Assembly (NCBI RefSeq): GCF_021278965.1
Contig: NZ_CP065589.1
Span: forward strand, 2,609,001 to 2,673,000
Origin: Chryseobacterium capnotolerans
GTDB lineage: Bacteria > Bacteroidota > Bacteroidia > Flavobacteriales > Weeksellaceae
Direction of reading: 5' to 3'
DNA: 64,000 nt
The notes under the pieces are model-generated. The model had not been told where the DNA came from. It saw nothing but the letters and a program-made list of their open reading frames with translations, and ran no database searches. A program made the translations under genes and the position numbers. Each line of letters opens with the position of its first letter. Position 1 is the first letter of the stretch. Positions 3,935 to 10,479 of the stretch are shown piece by piece.

Positions 3935-5044
3935 ATGATATTGATGAAGGATAATGGAAATAATGTTAAATTTGTAAATATGCATCAATTATCATCCACT
4001 CTTTTCACATCCATTAAGCATTTGATTGAAAATGCTAAGAATAGTATCGTCCGCAATATTAACACTACTATGTTGTTAACTTATTTTGAAATAGGTAGAA
4101 TAATTGTTGAGGACGAACAAAATGGCAGAGATAGAGCCGAATACGCTAAGGAGATACTTAAAAAACTCAGTAAACAATTAACGAAAGAATTTGGAATAGG
4201 ATATTCTATTTCAAATCTGGAATATTTCAGAAAATTTTATTTAACATTTCAAGACAGAATTCCCCAATCGATGACTGGGGAATTTAGAAAATCCCAATCA
4301 GTGATTGGGATTTCTTCAGAAAATTTAAATGATGAAATACCATCTCGTAATTTACCATTTACACTATCGTGGACTCACTATATACAATTACTTAAAATTG
4401 AGAATGAAGACGAAAGAAACTTTTATGAAATAGAAGCTTCTCAAAACAATTGGAGCGTAAGAGAATTGACCAGACAATATAATTCTGCAATTTATGAAAG
4501 ATTAGCTCTTAGCAGGGATAAAGAAGGTGTGAAACAATTAGCTCAAAAAGGGCAAATTATAGAAAAGCCCACCGACGTTCTAAAAAGTCATTATGTTTTG
4601 GAATTTCTGGATTTGAAAGAAGATAGTCGCTATTCCGAAAGTGATTTGGAGACAGAAATCATCAATAAGCTGGAACATTTTATGTTAGAATTGGGTAAAG
4701 GTTTCCTTTTTGAAGGCAGGCAAAGGCGATTTACTTTTGACGGTGACAGCTTTTTTGTGGATTTGGTTTTCTATAATCGGTTGCTAAAATGTTTTGTTCT
4801 ATTAGATTTAAAAATTGGAAAACTAACCCACCAAGATATTGGACAGATGCAGATGTATGTAAATTATTATGATAGAAAGATAAGAACGAAGGATGAAAAT
4901 CCTACAATAGGAATCATTCTCTGTAAAGAGGAGAACAAAACAGTGATAGAATTTACACTTCCGGAAAACAATAAGACCATTTTTGCGAAAGAATACAAAG
5001 CTATTCTTCCAAGTAAAGAAGAATTAAAAAAACAAATTGGATAA
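3935..5044 (+). CDS. PDDEXK nuclease domain protein, DUF1016 (YhcG) family
   Basis: A 369-residue protein. The N-terminal DUF1016 winged-helix region (residues 10-180, with FEIGRIIVEDEQNG and YSISNLEYFRKFY) is followed by a C-terminal PD-(D/E)XK nuclease fold: FDGDSFFVDLVFYNRLLKCF then LLDLKIGKLTHQDIGQMQMY at about 268-310. The conserved D and the DLKIG motif (D-x-K in place of E-x-K) are present and fit an intact active site for this family. Such genes often travel with restriction systems. Here it ends 21 bp before the Type IIG gene, so coexpression is likely. The hinge (residues about 108-128) is encoded by two short hairpins. Start could be the ATG at 3935 or at 3944. Confidence 0.85.
   Translation: MILMKDNGNNVKFVNMHQLSSTLFTSIKHLIENAKNSIVRNINTTMLLTYFEIGRIIVEDEQNGRDRAEYAKEILKKLSKQLTKEFGIGYSISNLEYFRKFYLTFQDRIPQSMTGEFRKSQSVIGISSENLNDEIPSRNLPFTLSWTHYIQLLKIENEDERNFYEIEASQNNWSVRELTRQYNSAIYERLALSRDKEGVKQLAQKGQIIEKPTDVLKSHYVLEFLDLKEDSRYSESDLETEIINKLEHFMLELGKGFLFEGRQRRFTFDGDSFFVDLVFYNRLLKCFVLLDLKIGKLTHQDIGQMQMYVNYYDRKIRTKDENPTIGIILCKEENKTVIEFTLPENNKTIFAKEYKAILPSKEELKKQIG
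4258..4313. repeat. Two adjacent hairpins inside the DUF1016 coding sequence
   Basis: AATTCCCCA at 4258-4266 pairs with TGGGGAATT at 4276-4284 across a 9-nt loop. Directly after it AAATCCCAATCA (4289-4300) pairs perfectly with TGATTGGGATTT (4302-4313) around a single base. Both encode the variable hinge of the nuclease (segment MTGEFRKSQSVIGIS). Two consecutive related palindromes in coding DNA are unlikely by chance and look like a small mobile or expandable palindromic unit. Confidence 0.7.
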
Positions 5045-5065: not shown

Positions 5066-5269
5066 GTGTCACAAAAAATATTAACTCCTCATAAATCTCT
5101 AAATAAATCCTTTCTGAAACTTAAACCAAACAGAAAAGATATTGAAAATTTCAAGCACAATTTTGTAACACTTTTTGAAAGGATCAATGAAAAAGAATCC
5201 GAAGAATTTCAAAAAAATCTCATTATAGACTTCCTAAAAAAAATGGTTTTGATGCTGATTTCTATATAA
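5066..5269 (+). pseudogene. N-terminal fragment of the Type IIG restriction-methylation gene
   Basis: 67 residues starting from a GTG codon at 5066 (opening M-SQKILTPHKSLNKSFL). The sequence is the usual N-terminus (DUF7149-like) of a family of Type IIG enzymes. The frame is lost at an A8 run (5236-5243). Adding one A would give KKNGFDADFYINTKGKNDLV and join it without a stop to the long frame ending at 8094. The residues in between (5244-5370) carry NDLVIH and VIIETKS, a D plus E-x-K pair of a PD-(D/E)XK nuclease site, which is therefore split off in the sequence as given. It may be a phase-variable tract or, more likely, the same homopolymer contraction seen elsewhere in the window. Confidence 0.75.
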
Positions 5270-5370
5270 ATACAAAAGGAAAAAATGATTTAGTTATACA
5301 TACTGATAAAACAACTGCTAGTCCTGTAGGGGTAATTATTGAAACCAAGAGCATTAGCAATTCTGCGGAA

Positions 5371-8094
5371 ATGGTAAGTGCTAAAAGACTAAACACTAAA
5401 GCACTTCAGGAATTGTTATTATATTTTCTTAGGGAGAGAATTACACATAAAAATTTGGAGGTTAAACATCTTATTGTAACCAATCTATATGAGTGGTTCA
5501 TTTTTGATGCGTATCAATTCGAATATTTTTTTGCTAAGAACAAAAAATTAGTTAAGCAATTTGAGGATTTTGAAACGAAAAGACTTTCAGGAATATCAAC
5601 AGATGTATTCTATAAAGAAATTGCAAAGCCATTTTTAGATGAGGTAGCTAGTCAATTAGAGTTTACCTATTTCAATTTAAAAGATTACGCATCTATTGTA
5701 AAGAACCATTCTCAAAGGGATGACAACAAGCTGATTGCTATTTTTAAAATATTTAGTCCGGCTCATCTCCTAAAACTTCCATTCATCAATGACAGTAATA
5801 CTTTAGATAAGAGTTTTTATAATGAATTGTTACATATTATTGGATTAACAGAGACAAAGGAAGCTGGAAAACGATTAATCGAGCGCAATAAGTCTGGACA
5901 AAGAAATTTAGGTTCTTTATTAGAAGATACCATTATACAATTGGATTCTTTGGATAAGGTAAATCGTATCAATAAGCCATTCTTGTATGGAGATTCATAT
6001 GAAGAAAGACTTTTCAACATCGCACTAGAACTCAATATTACTTGGATTAACCGGGTTTTATTCCTAAAGTTAATGGAGGGACAGCTCGTCAATTATCACA
6101 GAGGTGACAAAGCATTTCTCTTCTTAAATTTTAATAAGATAAGACAGTACGATGACCTTAATACTTTATTCTTTCAGGTTCTAGCGAGAAGGTATGAGGA
6201 CAGAAATGAAGATGTTAAGAAAGCATATGAAAAGGTTCCTTACTTGAATAGTTCGCTTTTTGAACCTACCGAATTAGAGCATTCGACTCTAATTATTAGT
6301 AATTTAAAGGACGAAAAGAAAATACCCATACTTCCTACAACAGTTCTGAAAGATACAACAGGTAAAAAAAGAAGTGGAGAACTTAATACTTTAGAATATC
6401 TATTTGAATTTTTAGATGCTTATGATTTTGCAAGTGAAGGGACAGCAGATATTTTAGATGAAAATAAGACCTTGATTAATGCTTCTGTCCTAGGGTTGAT
6501 TTTTGAGAAGATTAATGGATATAAAGATGGTAGTTTTTATACTCCGGGCTTTATCACAATGTATATGTGTAAAGAAACGTTACGCAAAGCAGTTTTACAA
6601 AAATTCAATGAGATAAAGAATTGGGATTGTAAATCAATTGTCGATTTACATAATAGAATAAACGATATAAAAGAGGCAAATGAGATTGTCAATTCTTTAC
6701 GTGTTTGCGATCCCGCGGTTGGTTCAGGTCACTTTTTGGTATCTGCTCTTAATGAATTGATAGCGATTAAAAATGATCTTGGAATTCTGGTAGATAAATT
6801 CGGGAAGAAATTAAAAGATTATAATATCGAAGTACAGAATGACGAATTAATAATTACAGACGAAAATGGAGAACTTTTCGAATATAATCCTAAAATTAAA
6901 GAAAGCCAGAGAATTCAGGAGACTTTATTTCACGAAAAACAAACCATTATAGAAAACTGTTTGTTTGGTGTAGACATAAATCCTAATTCTGTAAAAATAT
7001 GTCGTCTTCGTCTTTGGATTGAATTACTGAAGAATGCTTATTATAAATCAGAGAACGAATTGGAAACACTTCCTAATATTGATATTAATATTAAGAATGG
7101 CAATTCATTAATTAACCGGTTTGGATTGGACAGTAACTTGTCATCTGCTCTGAAAAAAACAGGAATTTCCATAGAAAAATATAAGGAAGCTGTTGATCTT
7201 TACCGTAATGCAGAAAGTAAAGCTCAAAAATGGGAATTAGAACAAGTTATTAATAACATCAAAACAGGATTCAGGACAGAAATTAGCAAAAACAGTAAGG
7301 AAATAAAATCTCTCAATTTATTGAGAGGAGAATATTATACAAAATATCAGAGTGAGCAACTTTTTGAAACTGCATTAACAAAGGCTCAACAGAAAGATAA
7401 GAAAACTCTGGAAGCTAAAATCAAAAAAATTGAAGATTTTATTGAAGAGATTAAGAACAATAAGATATATGAAAATGCTTTTGAGTGGCGTTTTGAATTT
7501 CCGGAAGTATTGGATAACGAAGGAAATTTTATTGGTTTTGATGCTATCATAGGGAATCCCCCATACATTCAACTACAAAAAATGGGAGCTGAAAGTGATG
7601 CGCTTCAGCAAATGGAATATGAAACTTTTGCTAAAACTGGGGATATTTATAGTTTATTTTATGAGTTAGGATATGATATTCTTAAACCTAAAGGAATATT
7701 AACCTTTATTACTTCCAATAAATGGATGAGAGCTGCCTATGGCGAGAGTCTGCGTAAATTTTTTGCAGAGAAAACAAATCCTGAAATTTTAATTGACTTC
7801 TCAGGAAATCAGATATTTGATACAGCAACAGTAGATACTAATATTTTGACATTTACTAGGGATAAAAATAGACAACAAACAGAAGCCTGTATTGTTAAAG
7901 AAAAGCTGTTAATTAATTTGAGCGATTATTTTAGACAGAATTCTTCATTGTCGTCAAATTTTTCAAATTCTGAAACTTGGGTAATACTAACTCTAATCGA
8001 ACAGCAGATAAAGGAAAAAATTGAGAAGATTGGCACACCGTTGAAAGATTGGAACATAAGGATAAATCTACAGAGGAATCTAAACAGGGTTTAA
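5371..8094 (+). CDS. Type IIG restriction enzyme/N6-adenine DNA methyltransferase, main body
   Basis: A 907-residue frame, continuous at its 5' side with the nuclease region if the A8 run is corrected. It carries the N6-adenine methylase SAM-binding motif I (VCDPAVGSGHF, about residues 446-456) and the catalytic motif IV NPPY (729-732) in AIIGNPPYIQLQKMG. A Type IIG polypeptide combines cleavage, methylation and target recognition. The C-terminal TaqI_C-like target-recognition domain begins near IGTPLKDWNI at the end of this frame and is encoded in the invertible cassette, where the reading frame breaks at about 8055. The full protein would be about 1,260 residues. It follows the DUF1016 gene closely. 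The ATG at 5371 is only the first start after the broken frame, not a likely natural start. Confidence 0.85.
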   Translation: MVSAKRLNTKALQELLLYFLRERITHKNLEVKHLIVTNLYEWFIFDAYQFEYFFAKNKKLVKQFEDFETKRLSGISTDVFYKEIAKPFLDEVASQLEFTYFNLKDYASIVKNHSQRDDNKLIAIFKIFSPAHLLKLPFINDSNTLDKSFYNELLHIIGLTETKEAGKRLIERNKSGQRNLGSLLEDTIIQLDSLDKVNRINKPFLYGDSYEERLFNIALELNITWINRVLFLKLMEGQLVNYHRGDKAFLFLNFNKIRQYDDLNTLFFQVLARRYEDRNEDVKKAYEKVPYLNSSLFEPTELEHSTLIISNLKDEKKIPILPTTVLKDTTGKKRSGELNTLEYLFEFLDAYDFASEGTADILDENKTLINASVLGLIFEKINGYKDGSFYTPGFITMYMCKETLRKAVLQKFNEIKNWDCKSIVDLHNRINDIKEANEIVNSLRVCDPAVGSGHFLVSALNELIAIKNDLGILVDKFGKKLKDYNIEVQNDELIITDENGELFEYNPKIKESQRIQETLFHEKQTIIENCLFGVDINPNSVKICRLRLWIELLKNAYYKSENELETLPNIDINIKNGNSLINRFGLDSNLSSALKKTGISIEKYKEAVDLYRNAESKAQKWELEQVINNIKTGFRTEISKNSKEIKSLNLLRGEYYTKYQSEQLFETALTKAQQKDKKTLEAKIKKIEDFIEEIKNNKIYENAFEWRFEFPEVLDNEGNFIGFDAIIGNPPYIQLQKMGAESDALQQMEYETFAKTGDIYSLFYELGYDILKPKGILTFITSNKWMRAAYGESLRKFFAEKTNPEILIDFSGNQIFDTATVDTNILTFTRDKNRQQTEACIVKEKLLINLSDYFRQNSSLSSNFSNSETWVILTLIEQQIKEKIEKIGTPLKDWNIRINLQRNLNRV
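7919..7947. repeat. Left 29-bp inverted repeat of the invertible cassette
   Basis: The segment starting TGAGCGATTATTTTAGAC and ending AATTCTTCA is a perfect reverse complement of 9766-9794. It lies inside the methyltransferase frame and encodes LSDYFRQNSS, so recombination between the two copies keeps the reading frame and replaces everything downstream. Its size matches the 26-30 bp crossover sites of small serine invertases. Identity breaks immediately outside the copies on both sides, then resumes less perfectly inside. Confidence 0.85.
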
Positions 8095-8845
8095 TGATGC
8101 CTTTATTATAGACGGAGCAAAACGAAAGATGAACTTATTAATCAGAAGATCCTAAAAGTGCAGAAATTATACGACCTTTTTTACGAGGCCGAGATATAAA
8201 AAGATATGCTTATGAAGCAACTGATTTATGGCTGATTAATACTCATAATGGAATCAAAGAGGGCGTAAAGGCAATAGATATTGAAATGATTATCCTGTTG
8301 TAAAAAAGCACTTTAGATCCTTCGGATATGATAGCCTAAAACAGATTGTCGATAAAGGAGCTGGTAGAAGAGACTACTAATCATATGGTCTGAACACAAG
8401 ACTCGATAAGCTTATATGGAGGATTTTTTATATACCGAAAAAATTATGTATCCTAATATAACAAAAATTCCAAATTTATCTCTACGATAAAAACATTTAT
8501 GTATTAAATAATACAATCCTTTATGATTAGCGGTGAAAGCATCTTTCTTATTTAGACTGCATTTTTGAACTCGTCACTCTTCAAATATTGTTTTATTGAT
8601 AACTTTCCTGAATTACATAGGAGGAACACGATGAATTAAGGAAAATATTCTTGAGCAGCTAAGAATTCCTGTATTGGAAATTGACCTAATGATTTAGAAC
8701 TCTAAATTTGAACTAATAGTTAGCAAAATTCAGGCAAACATAGAATTCCACTACTATTAACCAACTGATCTATTTGGACAATTTAGTGAATAAAATGATG
8801 TTTGACCTATATGGATTATCCGAGTTAAATGATGAACTGCAATAG
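8095..8845 (+). pseudogene. Target-recognition module 1 (left arm), frame-broken as sequenced
   Basis: Continues the methyltransferase gene after the TAA at 8092-8094. In alternating frames one reads TGFNDAFIIDG, KSAEIIRPFLRGRDIKRYAYE, DLWLINTHNGIK, VVKKHFRSFGYDSLKQIVD and finally MMFDLYGLSELNDELQ followed by TAG at 8843-8845. These are the standard blocks of the TaqI_C-like specificity domain and C-terminus of Type IIG enzymes. The breaks are scattered insertions, deletions and base changes rather than homopolymer errors only; for example ATCTAAACA looks like a blend of ATT-AAA-ACA and the other arm's ATC-TTG-ACT. Either a decayed gene or a consensus built from both orientations. Confidence 0.7.
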
Positions 8846-8871
8846 GTTTTATTGAGATCTCAATAAAACCT
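8844..8871. terminator. Central bidirectional terminator palindrome
   Basis: A perfect 28-bp palindrome: AGGTTTTATTGAGA (8844-8857) followed by its exact reverse complement. It directly follows the stop codons of both convergent modules (TAG at 8843-8845 on plus, TGA at 8862-8860 on minus), so it can end transcription from either side and remains in place after inversion. It also marks the symmetry centre of the cassette. Confidence 0.65.
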
Positions 8872-9794
8872 GATTTCTTCATCATTTAACTCAAATAAAT
8901 TGTAACATCCTTTGATTCACTAAATTTTCCAATATAAGTGTGGTTAATAGTTTTGGACTCTATGAGTTTGCCTGAATTTTCTAACTATTATTGCTAAATT
9001 AGTAAATAGTTCCTAAATCGTTGGGTCAATTCCCCATACGGAACTTTTAGCTGCTCAGATATATTTTCCTTAATTCATCTTGTCGTGCCAACACCAGTTG
9101 TAATGCAGGCAAGCTATCAGTAAAATACCATTTGCAGAATTTGACGAGTTCAAAAATCAGTGATACTAAATACTAATGCTTTCCCGCTAATCAAAAAAGA
9201 TAGTATTATTTTAATAAATACTTGTTTTTATCTAAACAAAAATTAGGATTGTTAGTTATATTACGATCCAGACTATTTTCGGTCTATAAAAAATCCTCCC
9301 AATAACTTATCGAATCTTGTGTTTCAAACCATTGATTATTGGAGTCTTTTACGAGCACCTTTATCTCCAGTCTGTTTTAGTCTAGATCATATCCGAAGGA
9401 TCTAAAGGTGCTTTTTTACAACGGGATAATCAGTTCAATATCTATTTTCAAACTTTGATTCCATTATGAGTCGTAATAAGATATAAATCAGTCGAATTCG
9501 TATGAGTATCGCTTAATATCACGCCCTCTTAATAAGGGTCGTATAATTTCGGCAGATTTTGGATCTTCTGTTAATAAGTTCTTTTCTTTCTTTTTTATCT
9601 ATAATAAAGGCCTCATTATACCCAGTCAAGATTCCTCTGTAGATATTATCCATATTCCACTCTTTCAAGAGGTGTTCCTACAGCTTCTCAATTTTTGCTT
9701 TTATCTGTTGTTCGATATCATTTAATATCACCCAAGGAGTCACTACTGGAAAAATTTGACTTTACTGAAGAATTCTGTCTAAAATAATCGCTCA
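8860..9794 (-). pseudogene. Target-recognition module 2 (right arm, silent orientation), frame-broken as sequenced
   Basis: Read on the minus strand from the right 29-bp repeat it encodes SDYFRQNSS, then in alternating frames EQQIKAKIEK, NIYRGILTGYNEAFIID, KSAEIIRPLLRGRDIKRYSYE, LITTHNGIK and a C-terminus IYLSELNDEEIRFY followed by TGA. It is homologous to the left arm but clearly diverged, more so in the variable part. It has no promoter, RNA start or methylase motifs of its own, which fits a silent donor module awaiting inversion. Frame breaks are dense, as in the left arm. Confidence 0.7.
9766..9794. repeat. Right 29-bp inverted repeat of the invertible cassette
   Basis: Begins TGAAGAATTCTGTCTAAAAT and is the exact reverse complement of 7919-7947. 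It sits 88 bp upstream of the invertase start codon. Outside it, toward the recombinase gene, the sequence no longer matches the outside of the left copy, which defines the cassette boundary. Confidence 0.85.
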
Positions 9795-9802
9795 TATAGA
9801 TG

Positions 9803-9868
9803 TTATTTTAATAGTCTATGTTTATTTTAGACAGTTATAATATATTTTATACCATTATTGTATAAAAT
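9803..9868. promoter_or_regulatory. Invertase upstream region with partial crossover-site copies and an inverted repeat
   Basis: TTATTTTAGACAG at 9822-9834 repeats 13 bp of the core of the 29-bp cassette ends; a weaker related stretch (TTATTTTAATAGTC) lies at 9803-9816. Directly before the gene ATTTTATAC (9844-9852) and GTATAAAAT (9860-9868) form a perfect inverted repeat with a 7-bp spacer. These could be binding sites for the recombinase itself (autoregulation or accessory sites) plus an operator. The roles are inferred from position only. Confidence 0.5.
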
Positions 9869-9882
9869 TTTAAACGAAAGAA

Positions 9883-10479
9883 ATGATTTACGGATACATC
9901 AGAGTAAGCACAGACAAACAAACAGTAGAAAATCAAAGATTTGAAATCAATCATTTTTGTGACAAGCAACAAATTGTGGTAAACAAATGGATTGAAGAAA
10001 CTATTTCAGGAGCAAAGAATGTTGATGACAGAAAATTAGGAAAACTTTTAAAAAAAATGAAAAAAGGAGATGTTTTAATTTGCTCAGAATTATCCAGGCT
10101 TGGAAGAAATCTTCTGATGATTATGGGTGTACTTAATGAATGTATGAATCGTGATATTCAAGTTTGGACCATTAAAGACAATTATCGCTTAGGAAGTGAT
10201 ATTAATTCTAAAGTATTAGCATTTGCATTTGGTTTATCAGCCGAAATTGAAAGAAACCTTATATCCCAAAGAACTAAAGAAGCATTAGCTCGGAAAAGAG
10301 CAGAAGGTGTAATTTTAGGCCGTCCTGTGGGTAGTAAATCTTCTAAGACAAAATTAACTGGTCAGGAAAAGAAGATTCAAGAATTGATTGAAAAAAAAGT
10401 TTCATATTCTGCAATAGGTAGGATTTTAGGTGTACATAGATTAACCGTTTCTAGTTTTGTAAAAGAAAGAATGAACTAA
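9883..10479 (+). CDS. Serine DNA invertase, Mpi-like resolvase/invertase family
   Basis: A 198-residue small serine recombinase. The catalytic domain begins MIYGYIRVST with the nucleophile Ser9 and conserved R7; LICSELSRLGRN (about 67-78) holds the S-x-L-x-R active-site arginines, and AFAFGLSAEIERNLISQRTK the long helix E that dimerises and contacts DNA. The C-terminal helix-turn-helix is YSAIGRILGVHRLTVSSFV. Size and sequence fit the Bacteroidota master-invertase (Mpi) group, which flips DNA between short inverted repeats. It sits just outside the right repeat of the cassette and is intact, so it is the obvious catalyst of cassette inversion. Confidence 0.9.
   Translation: MIYGYIRVSTDKQTVENQRFEINHFCDKQQIVVNKWIEETISGAKNVDDRKLGKLLKKMKKGDVLICSELSRLGRNLLMIMGVLNECMNRDIQVWTIKDNYRLGSDINSKVLAFAFGLSAEIERNLISQRTKEALARKRAEGVILGRPVGSKSSKTKLTGQEKKIQELIEKKVSYSAIGRILGVHRLTVSSFVKERMN

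Follow-up and report, generated by a model that had tools for sequence, protein, structure and literature searches.

Can a restriction enzyme exchange its target specificity by flipping part of its own gene? This question is raised by a locus of Chryseobacterium capnotolerans, in a stretch of 64,000 nucleotides (contig NZ_CP065589.1, positions 2,609,001 to 2,673,000, forward strand; hereafter the window), where the 3' part of a Type IIG restriction-methylation gene lies between perfect inverted repeats, with a serine DNA invertase gene beside them. A first-pass annotation, made from the letters of the window, had proposed an invertible target-recognition cassette here. Our analysis indicates that this is very probably a phase-variable Type IIG restriction-modification locus with invertible specificity. 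This reading draws on the anatomy of the locus, on retention of the reading frame in intact relatives, on arms partly swapped between genomes and on a tight link between the invertase and the second arm. From these we infer that the invertase would recombine two DYFRQ-encoding sites and flip a 1.9-kb segment. The conserved part of the enzyme, which lies upstream of 7919 and outside the segment, would be fused in frame to either of two TaqI_C-type arms, and the arm facing the invertase would be a stored copy. The sequences methylated, and presumably those cut, would differ between cells of one orientation and cells of the other, and the sequenced culture would have been a mixture of both. The parts of the locus are as follows (TRD, target-recognition domain).

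5066-5269, plus strand: 5' frame piece of the Type IIG gene (DUF7149 start; from the list of open reading frames), out of frame with the main open reading frame in this assembly
5371-8094, plus strand: main open reading frame of the Type IIG restriction-methylation enzyme (Pfam)
7919-7947, plus strand: left inverted repeat, proposed recombination site; perfect over 29 bp, in-frame translation LSDYFRQNS
7948-8855, plus strand: left specificity (TRD) arm; mosaic and frame-broken in this assembly
8163-8176, plus strand: internal exchange motif, left copy (EIIRP codons); swap boundary in relatives
8844-8871, no strand: 28-bp AT-rich palindrome at the meeting point of the convergent arms; overlapping 3' coding ends in relatives
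8856-9765, minus strand: right, silent specificity (TRD) arm; mosaic and frame-broken here, TaqI_C in an intact relative
9537-9550, minus strand: internal exchange motif, right copy; perfect 14-bp inverted pair with 8163-8176
9766-9794, minus strand: right inverted repeat, proposed recombination site; perfect over 29 bp, identical to the left
9822-9834, plus strand: extra copy of the repeat's TTATTTTAGACAG half in opposite orientation, between the right repeat and the invertase; read by eye
9883-10479, plus strand: Mpi-family serine DNA invertase, 198 residues, intact (Pfam Resolvase, NCBIfam NF009949, PDB matches to DNA-invertases)

Much of what the first-pass annotation had claimed about this anatomy was borne out. 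The perfect 29-bp repeats do lie inside the 3' part of the Type IIG gene, translation runs in frame through the left one, and an in-silico flip of the invertible segment (7919-9794, ~1.9 kb) preserves the LSDYFRQNS frame over the junction. The 20-bp core of the repeat was found in exactly two copies in the 5.36-Mb genome when up to three mismatches were allowed, and it was absent from all 100 shuffles of the window. Just outside the right repeat stands the predicted Mpi-like invertase, which scored 344.6 bits against the NCBIfam Mpi model NF009949 (cut-off 272) and 120.5 bits against the Resolvase catalytic domain PF00239 (cut-off 23.3); its C-terminal helix-turn-helix (PF13936) reached 21.7 bits, under the cut-off of 27. 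Two convergent, diverged specificity modules had also been described. Both copies are present (~0.9 kb each, with 75-93% complementarity in their ten longest gapless inverted matches), but neither is open, and translation of the arms as they stand gives stops in all three frames. The shared central terminator that had been suggested corresponds to the palindrome at 8844-8871, a position at which the convergent open frames overlap by 16 bp in many relatives; the terminator idea itself is neither supported nor excluded.

The main open reading frame encodes, in order, the rest of DUF7149, DUF7814, an Eco57I-type methylase with an IGNPPY motif, and the left arm (Pfam), which is out of frame from ~8060. 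Its DUF7149 match starts at profile position 100, and the same 5' region is a single intact frame in Chryseobacterium taeanense. The Type IIG gene is therefore not intact in this window, with breaks in its 5' part and in both arms; it is intact in relatives. The 5' break, near 5240, is a homopolymer-length difference at a point where C. taeanense DSM 17071 (locus L019) and genome G020 (locus L099) are intact, and it is either a sequencing error or a second, slippage-type switch.

Named genomes were scanned with the enzyme core, and the best 80 of 273 loci were kept. An invertase was present at six of these 80, in C. taeanense, ZHDP1 (L020), Leaf404 (L022) and MFBS3-17 (all Chryseobacterium), Albibacterium bauzanense and Kaistella sp. 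SH40-3. All six carry an enzyme frame of 1,242-1,267 residues, a convergent frame of 243-325 residues and the invertase. The proposed machine is thus found whole in clean relatives, with a Type IIG enzyme, a convergent TaqI_C copy and an invertase beyond the right repeat. The full-length enzyme of C. taeanense scored 940.9 bits against the PADLOC model REase_MTase_IIG over residues 10-1237 of 1245, and it joins an Eco57I methylase and a TaqI_C specificity domain in one polypeptide (Pfam). DUF7149 and DUF7814 precede the methylase there, and Pfam assigns neither a function. A 13-15-bp counterpart of the window's extra half-site lies at the equivalent position in L019/L132, L020, L099, L134 and L141.

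We observed that the convergent copy occurred at 6/6 loci with the invertase and at 0/50 loci without it (Fisher P = 3e-8). This count covers the 56 of the best 80 loci in which the enzyme is followed by 1.5 kb or more; the other 24 were left out because they had too little downstream DNA, among them Epilithonimonas caeni (L021), where the convergent copy is cut by the contig end. Two of the 50 loci without an invertase carry a second homologous gene on the same strand. Such a gene follows the Type IIG gene in tandem at L054 (Sphaerospermopsis) and L098 (Cuspidothrix).

Inversion keeps the enzyme open in these relatives. We compared the stop-to-stop open frame before and after an in-silico flip between exact repeats of the terminal type (DYFRQ/VFVSQ). 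The lengths in residues were 1253/1253 for L019, 1267/1276 for L020, 1250/1252 for L022, 1242/1249 for L023, 1249/1262 for L139, 1114/1137 for L140, 1250/1259 for L141, 1247/1255 for both L143 and L144, 1237/1250 for L151 and 1250/1254 for L156; in L099, whose arm is frame-broken, a frame of 1127 became one of 1250. The frame was also kept when the flip was made between other repeats (L025 1242/1266, L137 1282/1280, L157 1087/1112, L160 1159/1155). The exception was L146, where a frame of 1135 fell to 898 and an extra open reading frame, transposase-like by eye, lies inside the segment. No exact repeat of at least 12 bp was found near the arm start in L154/L077. The silent arm begins with ATG exactly at the repeat in L019, L022, L023, L139, L141, L143 and L151 (MSDYF, MSIYF, MSVFV), so that a stand-alone specificity protein could be translated; this ATG is not present in the silent arms of L020 or L025. 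At L157 (genome G154), a 63-bp inverted repeat (7359-7421 and 9665-9727) covers the NPPY motif of the methylase, so a flip there would also exchange part of the methylase.

The arms themselves have the character of specificity modules. TaqI_C was detected in both arms of C. taeanense (expressed arm 39.2 bits, silent arm 54.2 bits; Pfam cut-off 26.5), and a profile of ten arms matched residues 334-575 of the BseCI methylase, whose structure is solved (E = 7e-15). The ten-arm alignment shows a conserved framework with strongly variable stretches. An AlphaFold model of an arm was too poor to be used for a fold search (mean predicted local distance difference test score, pLDDT, 56.9).

Comparison of the arms between genomes revealed exchanges in parts. 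L019 and L020 have cores that are 99% identical, and over residues 0-100 their arms agree crosswise (L, left arm; R, right arm: LR 91/90 and RL 86/94 vs. LL 71/72 and RR 71/74). Past residue 100 the exchange is not reciprocal: the left arms agree over residues 100-150 (LL 94), and over residues 150-250 the left arm of L019 is again like the right arm of L020 (82/90). The arms of L019 and L022 (core 90%) run parallel over residues 0-100 (LL 78/88, RR 84/84) and crosswise over residues 100-250 (LR 76/98/88 and RL 76/91/90 vs. LL 44/30/30 and RR 31/29/28). L023 and L151 (core 97%) show parallel arms up to residue 100, then crosswise likeness over residues 100-150 (LR 94, RL 100). The related genomes, which had been proposed as the place to look for the opposite orientation, thus do not appear to be confined to one orientation: C. 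taeanense has arms reciprocally swapped in parts with those of ZHDP1 (residues 0-100) and with those of Leaf404 (residues 100-250).

The inner swap boundary coincides with a conserved motif encoding EIIRP-LRGRD, ~95-100 residues into the arm, and the likeness of the silent arm starts exactly at this motif in L101, L149, L150, L077, L188, L189 and L190. These data point to the inner site as a possible second place of recombination, the agent there being either the invertase or ordinary recombination. Two specificities had been proposed for the enzyme; with exchange seen at two places in the arm, the second exchange point suggests up to four.

We next turn to the broken arms of the window. Against C. 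taeanense, the left arm (913 bp) has 39 indel events and the right arm (914 bp) has 52, whereas the flank has one indel in 4,648 bp (four pieces, covering 3935-5044, 5066-7918 and 9795-10479). The indels are bounded by the repeats, and the damage thus starts and stops there. Poor assembly around the locus was rejected as the cause, since the tested flanks are clean but for that one indel. Compared with the intact 862-base arms of C. taeanense, the two window arms have 51-52 extra bases; the arms of G020 differ from those of C. taeanense by one indel event each. Aligned to each other, the window arms give 774 matches, 121 mismatches and 103 gap columns, compared to 598, 125 and 334 in C. taeanense, 585, 133 and 399 in ZHDP1, and 593, 146 and 290 in Leaf404. 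By these counts the window arms resemble each other more than the arms of clean relatives do.

Each window arm was then aligned to both C. taeanense arms with switching allowed, the parents being those of another strain. With two parents, the score rose from 626.5 to 736.5 for the left arm (14 switches) and from 533 to 717.5 for the right arm (19 switches). The intact arms of G020, used as a control, gained 0 (0 switches) and 1.5 (2 switches). In the simplest reading, which is also the most likely, the window arms are a patchwork consensus over reads from cells in both orientations, so that the switch would have been active: switching was probably under way in the sequenced culture. Contig ends at most 0.9 kb upstream of the invertase, found at 7/35 loci of the family survey described below, fit this mixed-orientation reading. 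In three genomes with such a break (G172, G185, G158), the enzyme core ends 0.25-0.6 kb from the end of another contig.

Several observations weigh against an invertible locus that was switching in this culture. In none of the pairs of relatives compared had a complete arm been exchanged in one piece, which is the part of the expectation about related genomes that failed, and slow homologous recombination could account for the swaps between species. Since both arms of the window are broken, what the locus does in this strain is deduced from relatives. In the alignment to two parents, a higher score is not proof by itself: the arms of L020 and L022 are intact but naturally mosaic, and they too gained between 41 and 152.5 (1 to 9 switches). 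Such natural mosaics stay in frame, which the window arms do not. Decoy second parents also partly raised the window scores: with 19L as first parent the left arm reached 626.5-670.5, and with 19R the right arm reached 536.5-655.5; the best decoys were partial homologues of the missing parent. In the surveys described below, 4/35 family loci (L133, L145, L100, L153) have no second arm beside the invertase, and 3/8 further phylum matches differ, two (66% and 56% identity) lying in other contexts and one being degenerate.

We consider it unlikely that the arms are exchanged by slow homologous recombination or gene conversion between inverted arms while the invertase acts elsewhere or hardly ever. 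Such a process would suit the missing whole-arm swap, the exchange at the inner EIIRP/LRGRD point, which is unlike the terminal repeat, and the existence of long internal repeats such as that of 81 bp in L025. Against it, invertase and second arm strictly co-occur, the terminal site exists in the genome only as this one pair, and the cassette of the Lactococcus plasmid pJM1F lies between paired sites of a similar kind, GAGCGATTATGTACGACAAAAT.

It is quite improbable that the cassette of the window is a decayed pseudogene, that is, two old TRD copies with frameshifts and gene conversion that no longer switch. Neither arm is open, the enzyme frame is broken once more upstream, and the arms of relatives are natural mosaics too, as decay would have it. 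Decay should not stop at the repeats, though, and the invertase with its upstream region equals C. taeanense at 685/685 bases; the core is without an indel in 2,548 bases, compared to 91 indel events in 1.83 kb of arms. Nor does decay predict arms that are 51-52 bases too long or that alternate between parents 14 and 19 times. An ON/OFF switch, with one orientation active and the other arm non-functional, is very improbable: some silent arms are short (a 168-residue frame in L137), but the silent arm of L019 has TaqI_C and yields a full-length frame when inverted, and the crosswise pattern of the arms between genomes suggests that each of the two has at some time been expressed.

The putatively invertible Type IIG architecture extends well beyond the window. 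A survey of the family, whose genomes overlap with the named set (several are in both), found the invertase in 35/296 genomes with 37 matches (E = 1e-40 or better). The 35 matches at 74% identity or above were counted, and two weaker ones (62% and 48%) were not. Both arms are present at 24/35 (21 by scoring, the window itself, and L136 and L138 by reading). A survey of the phylum gave nine matches in 395 genomes at E = 1e-60, the window's own included; 5/8 further matches (73-90% identity) have the enzyme and a convergent copy. The architecture occurs in several Bacteroidota families, and the enzymes differ, the matched part in L140, L157 and L160 being only 26-30% identical to the core.

Searches for the invertase in plasmids and phages returned 15 plasmid records and five phage records, and the surroundings were read for 8/15 plasmids. 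The Lactococcus plasmids pJM1F and pUCCL629A have an N-6 DNA methylase, a convergent open reading frame (annotated as a TaqI-like specificity protein in pJM1F and as hypothetical in pUCCL629A) and an Mpi-family invertase. In pJM1F, the one plasmid where homology was compared, the convergent frame is homologous to the end of the enzyme; the paired repeat resembles the site of the window, the enzyme is Type IIG by PADLOC, and in-silico inversion gives a frame of 1,061 residues compared to 1,106. On a Desulforapulum plasmid, genes for a helicase and a methyltransferase lie downstream of the invertase, and methylase-type neighbours were absent beside the invertase in four of the eight plasmids read. 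We tentatively propose, at somewhat less than even confidence, a portable module in which a clade of Mpi-type invertases and an inverted second arm have spread horizontally over different Type IIG enzymes and phyla. It would use two site classes, DYFRQ where the arm begins and EIIRP/LRGRD ~95 residues further in, its half-arms would shuffle independently, and up to four restriction and methylation specificities per gene could coexist in a population.

Some loci depart from this layout in their own ways. L134 (genome G281) is among the 24 loci with both arms, and the enzyme core was not found in that genome; a leftover arm is fused to an open reading frame that resembles an S41-type peptidase by eye. 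In Epilithonimonas caeni (L133, genome G111; L021) enzyme and invertase share a contig but are ~69 kb apart, with a collagen-like open reading frame next to the invertase; this is either a large rearrangement or a misjoin. At L153 (genome G231) the invertase adjoins a broken enzyme core of opposite direction, which looks like an inversion with the wrong partner site. On a Prevotella nigrescens plasmid (L203), an Mpi-family invertase is followed by two Eco57I-methylase open reading frames and an N-6 methylase on the other strand, which may be a switch of another design. Directly upstream of the Type IIG gene of the window, at 3935-5044, is a DUF1016/YhcG-type nuclease gene (PADLOC candidate PDC-S02), which differs from that of C. 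taeanense at 2/1,110 bases and is also present in G020 (L099). It is possibly part of the same defence island.

Searches of an open-access full-text library listed no invertible Type IIG enzyme, judged by titles and the openings of abstracts, and the excerpts read described none, in line with the first-pass annotation, which knew of no earlier description; subscription papers and REBASE lay outside this search, so absence is unproven. The nearest known systems are invertible Type I hsdS, BREX (bacteriophage exclusion) PglX accompanied by a partial copy, and Cj0031, a Type IIG enzyme that phase-varies, compared here as they are described in excerpts of the cited papers. Invertible Type I hsdS loci occur in Mycoplasma pulmonis, pneumococcus and Streptococcus suis (PMC7394358, PMC3077401). 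At those loci, as proposed here, inverted diverged specificity sequences are exchanged by inversion and the methylation target is changed, and several have a recombinase gene. They differ in having a separate HsdS subunit within a multi-gene system, whereas specificity here resides in the C-terminal part of a single polypeptide, alongside a serine recombinase of the Mpi family. Membership in Type I hsdS was rejected, given a specificity region fused to the methylase and no hsd subunit among the five neighbouring proteins scanned.

The BREX-1 locus of Lactobacillus rhamnosus has a full PglX, a partial second copy and a site-specific integrase, and PglX heterogeneity is tied there to phase variation (PMC7513527). 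It shares with our locus a full-length methylase, a partial copy and a recombinase, and is unlike it in being a multi-gene BREX system with the integrase between the full and partial copies. Membership in BREX was rejected as well: the L019 enzyme scored 85.5 bits compared to a BREX-1 PglX cut-off of 500, and PglZ has a single match in the genome, at a distance of 1.87 Mb. The first BREX paper reportedly noted inverted pglX copies with recombinases already.

Campylobacter jejuni Cj0031 is a phase-variable Type IIG enzyme, with changes in methylation and phage restriction (PMC4889913). The locus of the window would likewise hold a phase-varying Type IIG enzyme; unlike Cj0031, where expression of one specificity is switched stochastically, a flip here would exchange specificities. 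Switching of Cj0031 is said to be a repeat-tract mechanism. In Helicobacter pylori, domain movement (DOMO) is described for S genes, among them that of a Type IIG S subunit, with the choice between site-specific and homologous recombination left open in the excerpt (PMC3077401). Target-recognition domains are exchanged there by recombination at repeats, as they would be here, and the H. pylori case differs in its separate S subunit. Mpi of Bacteroides fragilis is a master DNA invertase that flips promoters at many sites. The invertase of the window belongs to the same recombinase family (NCBIfam) and is likewise associated with short inverted repeats, but one site pair was found here, and it lies within coding sequence.

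Consensus assemblies may turn active inversion into apparent frameshifts. An inversion and a series of frameshifts are described for the hsdS region of a PacBio-sequenced Prevotella intermedia genome (PMC5608340). As far as the excerpt describes them, these frameshifts may deserve re-examination as a consensus artefact. The arms of this family also offer naturally occurring collections of interchangeable recognition arms that can be studied. In a Type IIG enzyme, cutting and methylation share a single recognition region, so a flip would change both together and leave no mismatch between cutter and protector. If our reading is true, methylation motifs beyond the simple gene count are possible, and a single gene would provide a two- to four-way epigenetic and phage-defence switch.

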